Source of the DNA: Natronocalculus amylovorans
GTDB taxonomy: Archaea > Halobacteriota > Halobacteria > Halobacteriales > Haloferacaceae
Length of the DNA stretch: 64,000 bases
Direction of reading: 5' to 3'
NCBI RefSeq assembly: GCF_023638035.1
Contig: NZ_JAKRVX010000002.1
Coordinates: 496,001-560,000, forward strand
Positions within the stretch are counted from its first letter, which is position 1. Each line of letters starts with the position of its first letter. Below are positions 26,519-30,416 of the stretch, one piece after another. The position numbers and the translations under genes are program-made. A model generated the notes under the pieces. That model had not been told where the DNA came from and searched no databases. It saw only the letters and a program-made list of their open reading frames with translations.

Positions 26519-27136
26519 CTACGGTTCGATCGGGACGGCAACTTCATGTCGCCGTAAGAACGGTGGCGTCCATGGCGCATTGTACTGCATCATGAACGGT
26601 TTCCCGGTCGGTCTGATACCGTTCTCTTCCAATGTTGAGAGGAGGTGGTCAGTTGCTCGTTTGATCCGATCGCCTGTTGCATACCAACTGAATTGATACA
26701 CGGCAATCTCACGTGGGGCTTCAACCGTGAGCGAGACACCGACTTCCGTTGGTGTTGGGGCAGTTTCAGGAGCATATGATGCAGGAAGATAGAACGCCAT
26801 GCGAACACCAGAGCCTGCAGACTCGGTTCGAAGCGGCGCGGTCATCTCCATGCGTTCACCTGCGGTTCGGACAGGTGCAGTCATCGCAATCTCTGTGCCA
26901 CCATCATTTGCGCCCGTAATGTACCGATACAGTCGTCTAAATGCAGTCGATCGGTCCTCAGCAGTGGTTTCAACAGTAACAAGCGCAGGATATCGACGCC
27001 GTTCAACACCGTTGGCTGTTCCAACAACTTCGTACGCTACCTGTGCTGTTGTTCGAGATGAGTAGACGCCCCATCCGACCCATGTCGCCGCTGCCGCAAC
27101 TGCCGCACCGATCGCTATTTTTGCCCCGCGTTTCAT
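26519..27136 (-). CDS. SOUL/HBP heme-binding family protein, membrane-anchored
   Basis: About 205 residues. An N-terminal KRGAKIAIGAAVAAAATWVGWGVY is a signal anchor, and the remainder is a SOUL domain (YEVVGTANGVERRRYPALV, AFRRLYRYITGAND, EIAMTAPV, FLPASYAPETAPTPTE, FLRRHEVAVPI). SOUL proteins bind heme or tetrapyrrole loosely; the prokaryotic role is not settled. The ATG at 27136 directly precedes the anchor and is preferred over 27199. It is divergent from icd. Confidence 0.85.
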   Translation of the reverse strand: MKRGAKIAIGAAVAAAATWVGWGVYSSRTTAQVAYEVVGTANGVERRRYPALVTVETTAEDRSTAFRRLYRYITGANDGGTEIAMTAPVRTAGERMEMTAPLRTESAGSGVRMAFYLPASYAPETAPTPTEVGVSLTVEAPREIAVYQFSWYATGDRIKRATDHLLSTLEENGIRPTGKPFMMQYNAPWTPPFLRRHEVAVPIEP

Positions 27137-27259
27137 AGCCGTCGTACGTCGTGGAGACACATATACCGTCGCCCTCGCTCGGCTGTGACTATTGTTCACA
27201 CATGAGACAGAGCAATAACGGCAGGCCTTTTAGGATGCCGTAAAAACTCGTGAATGTTT

Positions 27260-28522
27260 ATGAGCAACGAACTGATCGAAGTTCCTGAAGACGGCGAGAA
27301 GATCACGCTCGCTGACGAGGAGACGGGCAAACTGAACGTTCCTGACAACCCGATTATTCCAATCATCCACGGCGACGGAATCGGAACCGACGTTGGTCCA
27401 GCCGCTCAGAAGGTACTCGATGCAGCCGCAGAGGCAACCGGGCGATCGATTGCATGGATGCGTGTCTACGCTGGTGAGTCCGCACGGGAAAAATACGAGG
27501 AGAACCTCCCACAGGAGACCGTTGATGCAATCCGAGAACACCGCGTTGCGATCAAGGGACCACTCACAACGCCAGTTGGTGCTGGCTTCCGTAGCCTGAA
27601 CGTTGCACTGCGTAAAAAGCTTGATCTCTACGCAAACGTTCGTCCAACCTACCACCTCAACGGTGTCCCATCGCCGGTTACAAATCCAGAGGCAATGGAT
27701 ATGGTCACCTTCCGAGAGAACACCGAGGATGTGTACGCCGGAATTGAGTGGGAAGCGGGTACTGATGAAGTCGAACAGGTCAAAGCATTCGTTGAAGACG
27801 AGATGGGATTCGACTCAACAATCCACGATGGCCCCGTTGGAATCGGTATTAAGCCGATTACCGAATTTGGTTCGAAACGACTTATTCGTGAGGCGATCGA
27901 CTACGCGATTGCAAACGATCGCCCATCCGTAACGCTCGTTCACAAAGGCAACATCATGAAGTTCACCGAGGGTGCCTTCCGTGATTGGGGCTATGAGCTT
28001 GCAGATGAGGAGTACGGCGACAACGTCATTTCAGAGGATACCCTCTGGGACGAGTACGATGGCGAACAGCCCGCTGACACGGTTGTTGTCAAAGACCGTA
28101 TTGCAGACAACATGCTCCAGCAGCTTCTCACTCGAACAGGAGACTACGATGTCATCGCGACAATGAACCTGAACGGTGACTACATGTCCGATGCAGCCGG
28201 TGCGCAGATCGGTGGCCTCGGCATTGCACCTGGTGCAAACTTCGGTCACGGTCGCTGTCTCGCAGAGCCAGTCCACGGCTCTGCACCGAAATATGCAGGC
28301 CAAGACAAAGTCAACCCAACCGCAATGATCCTTTCGGGCCGCGAGATGCTCGATTACATGGGCTGGAAAGACGCCGCACAGCTCGTTCGTGACGCTGTCG
28401 AAGAGACAATCTCCTCCGGAAACGTCACCTACGACCTCCACCGACAGATTGAGGGCGGCGAGAAACTCGCAACCAGCGAATTCGCAGACGAAATCGTCGA
28501 AAACATCGAAAAGCTCGCATAA
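27260..28522 (+). CDS. icd: Isocitrate dehydrogenase (NADP-type)
   Basis: Oxidatively decarboxylates isocitrate to 2-oxoglutarate in the TCA cycle. It is 420 residues. Substrate residues are in TPVGAGFRSLNVALRKKLDL (about 112-131), with TFRENTEDVYAGIEW following. Metal-binding aspartates lie in NLNGDYMSDAAGAQIGG. The coenzyme segment GSAPKYAGQDKVNPTAMILS carries the Lys-Tyr pair associated with NADP use. Two in-frame ATGs (27254 and 27260) lie two codons apart; the second gives the family start MSNELIEVPEDGEKIT. It reads as highly expressed, with regular codon use. Confidence 0.96.
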   Translation: MSNELIEVPEDGEKITLADEETGKLNVPDNPIIPIIHGDGIGTDVGPAAQKVLDAAAEATGRSIAWMRVYAGESAREKYEENLPQETVDAIREHRVAIKGPLTTPVGAGFRSLNVALRKKLDLYANVRPTYHLNGVPSPVTNPEAMDMVTFRENTEDVYAGIEWEAGTDEVEQVKAFVEDEMGFDSTIHDGPVGIGIKPITEFGSKRLIREAIDYAIANDRPSVTLVHKGNIMKFTEGAFRDWGYELADEEYGDNVISEDTLWDEYDGEQPADTVVVKDRIADNMLQQLLTRTGDYDVIATMNLNGDYMSDAAGAQIGGLGIAPGANFGHGRCLAEPVHGSAPKYAGQDKVNPTAMILSGREMLDYMGWKDAAQLVRDAVEETISSGNVTYDLHRQIEGGEKLATSEFADEIVENIEKLA

Positions 28523-28561: not shown

Positions 28562-29767
28562 TTATTCAGCCCAATCCGGATCTGTCCGAGGTGGGCTGAA
28601 GATATCGAGCCCAAACACTTCTTTATCACCACGGTTTTCGGCTCCATGTGGTTCCGCACCCGGAATTGCGTATGAGTCACCGGGACCGACAACGACATCT
28701 TCTCCATCAACAACGAATGTGAGCGTTCCTTCGATAATATACCCTGTTTGCTCGTGATGATGACTATGTTCAGGAACGGTTGCACCGGGTTCGATTCGGA
28801 AGCTTTGAACGCTCATCTCTTCACCGGCGGCGAGTTGTTGGAGGTGGACACGATCGACAGGTTCTGCTTCTTTATCTGGGTTGTACGGAAGTACGTCCAT
28901 GCCACTACGGTGTTCGGAGCGGGCAAAAATATACGGCCTGCGGCGATCGGCGGCACCAACAAGAGATAGACTGTCTTGTGCGAGCGTCCGATTGAGCGCA
29001 GCACCAAGTAAAAATACCAAACAGAGTGCGTAGACCCACGTCAGCAGGACTATTATGCCGCCCAAGACACCGTATAACTGATACTGGCCTGCAGTGCCAA
29101 CGTACCAGAGAACACCGTACCGAAGAAGCACCCAACTGATCGCAACCACGATCGCACCCGGAACCGTTGATAAGAGCCCGATTTTAATTGGTGCTAACAC
29201 CGCGTATACCGCGCTTAGTATCGCCATAAGAAAAATAGTAAAGCCAATGGCAGACCAGACCGATCCAACGGCAATCATACTCATTGACGAGACGATCGTC
29301 TCAAATCCAACAAAGAGCAAAAACACGGTGAGAACGAGCACTAACAAGAGGATACCGTCGTAAAACTGGTCTAACAGCGAGTTCTCGTGTGTTTCGCTAT
29401 AGAGCTCTCCAACACCTTTTGAGAGGCCGCGGAAGAGTTTCAACGATCCCCAAAGAACCGCAAGAAATCCAAAGAGCCCCACGCCTGTTCGACCATCTTG
29501 ATTTTGCAGCACAGATTCAAGCGTTGACACACCTGCTTCCGAAAGGAATGGCTCCGCAGCAGCAATTGCTTGCTCGACAAACTGATCTGCGCCCACGATC
29601 GTGGCCCCAATAAAAACAAGCACAACAAGCGGAAGCGCTGCTGCAAGCGCATAGTACGCAACAGCAGCGGCAACAAGTGTCAGTTCACGCTCATTCGCAA
29701 GGGTCGCCGTATCTATCACGACCGATGCGGTTGTTCGAGCAACTGAACGGCTCCACGACGTTGACAT
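28562..29767 (-). CDS. YihY/BrkB-type membrane protein fused to a C-terminal cupin domain
   Basis: A single uninterrupted frame of 401 residues. Residues about 1-270 are a YihY/UPF0761 domain with six helices (LTLVAAAVAYYALAAALPL, GLFGFLAVLWGSLKLFRGL, WVYALCLVFLLGAALN). Residues about 290-401 are a complete cupin: motif 1 GATVPEHSHHHEQTGYIIEG and motif 2 GDSYAIPGAEPHGAEN, with metal-binding His and Glu. Haloarchaea commonly encode such a cupin as a free protein beginning near the internal Met290 (28900). YihY function is unresolved (once proposed as RNase BN, later withdrawn). The ATG at 29767 (MSTSWSRSVAR) is preferred over 29788. Confidence 0.85.
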   Translation of the reverse strand: MSTSWSRSVARTTASVVIDTATLANERELTLVAAAVAYYALAAALPLVVLVFIGATIVGADQFVEQAIAAAEPFLSEAGVSTLESVLQNQDGRTGVGLFGFLAVLWGSLKLFRGLSKGVGELYSETHENSLLDQFYDGILLLVLVLTVFLLFVGFETIVSSMSMIAVGSVWSAIGFTIFLMAILSAVYAVLAPIKIGLLSTVPGAIVVAISWVLLRYGVLWYVGTAGQYQLYGVLGGIIVLLTWVYALCLVFLLGAALNRTLAQDSLSLVGAADRRRPYIFARSEHRSGMDVLPYNPDKEAEPVDRVHLQQLAAGEEMSVQSFRIEPGATVPEHSHHHEQTGYIIEGTLTFVVDGEDVVVGPGDSYAIPGAEPHGAENRGDKEVFGLDIFSPPRTDPDWAE

Positions 29768-29891
29768 AGCAGTGTCGTACAGACACACGCTTGTAGGTAT
29801 TTTTCAGGAATTGTTGACTATCGAAACAATGATACACAACCTGTGGCGTCGCAAGCAGTATCTTGAAACCCGACCATCGAAAACTGCAGGT

Positions 29892-30416
29892 ATGTACGCG
29901 GTCGTTGGCTGTAATAAGTGCAATACGATGTGGCTACTCTCTAATCCTCGTCACGCAAAAACTGCAACCTGCCCTCGCTGTCAGAAACAGCACCAGACAA
30001 AAAAGCTCAAACATTTCTTTGAATCAGACGACAGAGCCGCAGCACAGGAAGCCCGGGCGGCACTGCTCGCAAAGAAACACGGAGATTCGGAGGCGTTTGC
30101 GGACGTTGCACACACAGCAGAGTTAGAACGGCTTGTTGAGGATGCAGGTGTGGATGATCACGAATATCTCACCGAGTCGGGACTTGATGCAGACACAATT
30201 ACGGAGGCAGGTGAGATGCGAACAAGCCGATCGCGGAGCCGAAAAGAGATTGTTCAAGATGCGATCGAGACGGCTAGCGATCGGCCAACAGCAGCAGACA
30301 TTCATGAGTACGCGGCCGATCACGGCGTTCCAAAATCTGCGTCAGAAAAAATACTGGAAGGGCTTGTTCGAGCAGGGGACGTAAGCGAAACCGGCGGACA
30401 ATACCGTCTTTTATAA
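29892..30416 (+). CDS. DUF5817 family protein with zinc ribbon and winged-helix end
   Basis: A 174-residue protein starting MYAVVGCNKCNTMWLL; together with the later CPRC it forms a CxxC...CxxC zinc ribbon (about 7-37). An acidic helical middle section follows, with a C-terminal winged-helix-like segment (PTAADIHEYAADHGVPKSASEKIL, EGLVRAGDVSETGGQYRLL). This matches haloarchaeal DUF5817. A nucleic-acid-binding role is suggested by the two domains but is not shown. The ATG at 29892 begins exactly at the ribbon. Its stop is 12 bp from the stop of the converging HMG-CoA reductase gene. Confidence 0.85.
   Translation: MYAVVGCNKCNTMWLLSNPRHAKTATCPRCQKQHQTKKLKHFFESDDRAAAQEARAALLAKKHGDSEAFADVAHTAELERLVEDAGVDDHEYLTESGLDADTITEAGEMRTSRSRSRKEIVQDAIETASDRPTAADIHEYAADHGVPKSASEKILEGLVRAGDVSETGGQYRLL

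Follow-up and report, generated by a model that had tools for sequence, protein, structure and literature searches.

A rare fusion of neighbouring yihY and cupin genes in Natronocalculus amylovorans, best read as preserving an internal cupin promoter

The YihY/BrkB family of membrane proteins (PF03631) is the closest described counterpart of the first domain of the protein considered here, and for the second domain the proteins of known structure with similar sequences are Sthe2323 (4e2g), the cellulose oxidative enzyme (CelOCE, 9bwf), KdgF (5fq0) and BacB (3h7j). Among the papers searched, none covers both YihY and cupin. With regard to haloarchaeal transcription, a study of Haloferax volcanii (PMC4983044) gives 72% of the protein-coding transcripts as leaderless, finds a downstream gene behind 144 of 1153 internal starts and describes the haloarchaeal TATA motif as TTWT.

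In Natronocalculus amylovorans the two domains are encoded by a single open reading frame. In the window, that is the whole stretch of 64,000 nucleotides analysed in this work, this frame occupies positions 29767-28562 on the minus strand, starts with the ATG at 29767, ends with the stop codon at 28564-28562 and comprises 401 codons plus stop, with no internal stop codon. A preliminary description of this DNA had put forward one uninterrupted 401-codon frame of YihY and cupin, and coordinates, length and both Pfam domains agree with it: PF03631 is found at residues 26-265 with 131.4 bits (cut-off 33.7; profile positions 2-258 of 259) and Cupin_2 (PF07883) at residues 323-390 with 72 bits (cut-off 27.2). 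The frame is real, and the presence of two domains in it is more than chance. Its YihY part (residues 1-276, 28940-29767, minus strand) ends about where the aligned YihY proteins of relatives with separate tandem genes stop. It shares the whole family domain and differs from the family by the C-terminal cupin and by its score for TIGR00765 (yihY_not_rbn, NCBIfam), which at 64.4 bits narrowly misses the cut-off of 73.15 and therefore leaves the protein outside TIGR00765. A search of the PDB sequences with the YihY part gave no match up to E = 1. The cupin (residues 290-401, 28562-28900, minus strand) begins with Met290 (ATG at 28900-28898), the position at which the cupins of relatives begin (MERLSLSD.. 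or MEVVPYHT..), which bears out the earlier proposal that this internal methionine corresponds to the start of a free haloarchaeal cupin.

An AlphaFold model of the complete protein (pLDDT 84.7, pTM 0.64) predicts a helical membrane domain, made up of six long membrane-type helices, an N-terminal helix and one short helix, followed by a cupin barrel. All 50 matches listed in a fold search were cupin-sized alignments. Sthe2323, the cellulose oxidative enzyme, KdgF and also TM1459 are among the fold matches to the modelled cupin, with identities of about 22-36%, and its HxHxxxQ stretch aligns with those of 4e2g and BacB. The likeness to KdgF, BacB and CelOCE is distant and concerns sequence and predicted fold only. 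Residues H334, H336, Q340 and H374 (28646-28768, minus strand), the presumed metal ligands of this Cupin_2 domain, are conserved in all 30 cupin rows of alignment A3, and the presumed metal site is as complete as had been claimed. A search for a second copy in the same genome yielded distant cupins only (27-38%).

Residues 277-289 (28901-28939, minus strand), which link the two domains, are best read as the cupin's own promoter translated in frame. This reading is based on the position of a TATA-like box, on the rank of Met290 in a promoter matrix and on the place of the yihY stop codon in two relatives. The box, TATATTTTT (28925-28933, minus strand), lies at -33 to -25 from Met290, and the cupin thereby carries a TATA-like box about 25-33 nt before its start codon, just where 53 other cupin genes have one. 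The underlying set of upstream regions, from which the window was excluded, contained 91 rows, of which 2 were skipped, 61 were distinct and 53 non-redundant; in these 53 regions A+T peaks at -30 to -26 of the ATG (0.62 to 0.91), the sequence being GC-rich elsewhere. With a matrix derived from them and spanning -37 to -18, Met290 scored 7.11, the top value of the positions scored in the reading frame and within the training range (median 6.4). Against the background of the window, 50 of the 127,874 positions in the window and 2 of its 1953 ATGs attain the score of Met290; when the upstream composition serves as background, 127 positions and 4 ATGs do so. When the genomes of group g12, the nearest relatives by cupin, were left out of the matrix, the corresponding numbers were 62 positions and 3 ATGs with the window background, Met290 still being top in the frame, and 138 positions and 5 ATGs with the upstream background, Met290 then being third. 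Finally, the aligned stop codon of yihY in L006 and L007 falls at about the place of the window's TATA box.

Two further properties of the linker carry little weight. Its G+C content at codon position 2 is 0.64 versus 0.40-0.43 in the flanks, with 14 codons being too few to weigh, and it coincides with the one region of the model with pLDDT below 50 (271-287), which suggests disorder but is weak evidence, since low confidence is to be expected where few alignment rows cover the sequence. As the linker appears to be the cupin's own start switch, free cupin is probably still made. An AT-rich stretch upstream of yihY, GAAAAATACC (29796-29805, minus strand; -38 to -29 from the yihY ATG), is a possible candidate promoter for a long transcript.

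The genomic setting, as established by tblastn with the neighbours in the window, is a conserved arrangement of hmgA, DUF5817, cupin and icd, in that order, to which an asparaginase gene is often added. Here the DUF5817 gene (29892-30416, plus strand) is the divergent neighbour and icd for NADP isocitrate dehydrogenase (27254-28522, plus strand) the convergent one; a gene for a SOUL heme-binding protein (PF04832) is located between the asparaginase gene and icd (26519-27133). DUF5817 and cupin were found within the fetched stretch at 47 distinct loci, the stretches having been picked from good matches so that the following counts are not unbiased frequencies. YihY is situated between the two genes at 10 of the 47 loci, the window included, and is absent from this place at 35, DUF5817 and cupin being head-to-head and at most 200 bp apart without YihY at 25 loci and separated by a longer gap without YihY at 10 (hmmsearch of ORFs in the gap). 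At the remaining two loci they are not head-to-head. DUF5817 and YihY are divergent neighbours at L135 (3-1358, G067), with no cupin match within the 2.2 kb fetched, and YihY at this locus is therefore not always paired with cupin.

Separate, tandemly arranged yihY and cupin genes occur in seven relatives, namely in 5 of 5 genomes of group g5 (L006, L007, L008, L013, L119) and in 2 of 2 genomes of the Halegenticoccus group g88 (L038/L114, L113). Locus, gene order, strand and position of the cupin promoter are as in the window, and the difference is that a stop codon parts yihY from the cupin gene. The distances from the yihY stop to the cupin ATG are 30, 30, 57, 40, 40, 68 and 134 nt; yihY is thus a separate gene that ends shortly before the cupin start and, in two cases, right at its TATA box. 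Both genes lie in one frame with a single TAG between them at L006 and L007 and with two TAGs at L008, and in different frames in the tandems of G394 and G395 (134 and 68 nt apart). In G398 and G379 YihY is located farther from the cupin. The cupins of group g12, from SHRA6 (L035) and Halalkalirubrum salinum (L036), share 77-79% identity as well as start methionine, promoter and neighbours with the cupin of the window, but yihY is lacking at their locus. These two loci possess an extra 290-aa open reading frame with a lipoprotein-like start between cupin and icd (L035 4431-5303, L036 4428-5300), which by eye resembles family 16 glycosidases.

Full-length searches for the fusion covered 391 genomes belonging to the class, 388 of which gave some match, and 170 belonging to the family, 163 of which matched at 1e-20; together these are 426 distinct genomes, the family adding 35 to the 391 from the class. 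Among the matches listed, which reach down to about 141 and 128 bits, an unbroken match over both domains was present in one of the 426 genomes, the window itself. A true fusion should top such a list because both domains add to the score; a strongly diverged one could escape, since the matches listed end near 141 and 128 bits. The longest matches after that of the window are those of L006, L007 and L008 with one or two TAGs inside, and among the matches listed from the 426 genomes, in which the genus is represented by a single genome, no second species shows the fusion. The long open frames of up to 631 codons listed next to matches of the cupin are stop-to-stop frames. In a scan of named genomes covering 58 loci only L038 had a YihY match as well. 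Of the two arrangements proposed for a genome search in the preliminary description, the fused one was found in the window only among the matches listed, and adjacent but separate yihY and cupin genes were found in the seven relatives.

Taken as a whole, the locus is best read as a rare fusion of neighbouring genes with a preserved internal promoter. We consider it rather probable that the fusion is specific to this lineage and arose through loss of the yihY stop codon, with the cupin keeping its internal leaderless promoter. A tandem yihY would have lost its stop in the lineage of the window, and the frame would have stayed open by chance through the 13-14 codons of the promoter. Such an open junction would come cheap once the stop had gone, as by our estimate the frame would fit in about one third of cases and 13-14 codons would be free of stops in about one half of these. 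The internal TATA box would still start a leaderless mRNA for an ordinary metal cupin of 112 residues, and the yihY promoter would give a longer mRNA, leading to a membrane protein with a flexibly tethered cupin as passenger, which would be cytoplasmic if the C-terminus of YihY is cytoplasmic. The cupin would keep its usual, probably enzymatic, job and would not gate YihY. Judging from sequence, free cupin is the probable product of the locus, perhaps together with some fusion protein. Counting against this reading are the lower rank of Met290 with the upstream background when g12 is left out, the two changes needed in the 31-row tree described below, the very long branch of the YihY half and the lack of YihY at this locus in g12, the nearest relatives by cupin. 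It is conceivable, but somewhat unlikely, that the locus represents a nested gene with two outputs, a membrane-tethered fusion of 401 residues and a free cupin of 112 residues made from a leaderless promoter within the linker, so that promoter choice would divide one cupin between membrane and cytosol.

The YihY half retains 35 of 48 columns with a conservation of at least 90% across 29 other YihY rows, which themselves keep 37-47 of 47-48 such columns, and is thus the least conserved row; its branch, with 2.0-2.3 changes per column versus a median near 0.1, is the longest among the YihY rows compared. Both observations indicate that the YihY half evolves fast, under constraint that is either relaxed or altered. 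In three trees, built from 31, 28 and 25 rows, it groups with YihYs adjacent to DUF5817 and apart from the second YihY of the same genome, its exact place being unsure because of the very long branch. The syntenic label requires two changes rather than one in the 31-row tree; once long rows are taken out and L139 is included among the syntenic ones, a single change suffices (91/99), and the same holds when L126, L135 and L139 are also removed (98/99). A horizontal origin was considered and set aside: among 246 genomes from the phylum, the copies at the syntenic locus in G019 and G022 match best after the protein itself (36%), a result that lends a foreign donor no support, and the long branch may still leave some room for one.

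It is conceivable, but in our view somewhat unlikely, that YihY is simply decaying under relaxed constraint, with tail and stop codon drifting, only the cupin mattering and little or no fusion protein being formed. This explanation overlaps in part with stop loss between neighbours. The long branch, the loss of conserved columns compared with all other rows and the absence of the gene from the locus in group g12 are in line with decay; on the other hand, 288 codons without a stop, a PF03631 score of 131 bits, 35 strongly conserved residues kept and confidently predicted helices speak against it. An assembly artefact, in which a base error removed the stop codon of what are truly tandem genes, was raised in the preliminary description and is improbable: L006 and L007 show a like arrangement with one in-frame TAG and the genus is represented by one genome only, but the context is ordinary within a contig of 701 kb and the genome is 99% complete. 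Least convincing, and very unlikely, is a selected functional fusion in which binding of a ligand or metal by a cytoplasmic cupin would gate or regulate the membrane domain, as the preliminary description had surmised in taking the fusion as a hint to YihY function, because against the frame open over 401 codons, the retention of every presumed metal ligand and the recurrence of the tandem in seven relatives stand its occurrence in one of 426 genomes, the 35 of 47 loci with a cupin lacking YihY, DUF5817 and icd as the usual neighbours of the cupin, a linker that is best read as promoter DNA and is disordered in the model, and a YihY half that is the least conserved of the rows compared, with 13 of the 48 conserved positions gone; gating of YihY by the cupin is without comparative support.

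Read as a loss of the stop between neighbouring genes, the locus illustrates one way in which gene fusions can come about, the former promoter being still recognizable in the protein as its linker. It is at the same time a warning against inferring function from a domain fusion present in a single genome: the fusion says little about the function of the membrane protein. Should both products be made, the locus would serve as a simple model of how promoters can control the tethering of a protein to the membrane.
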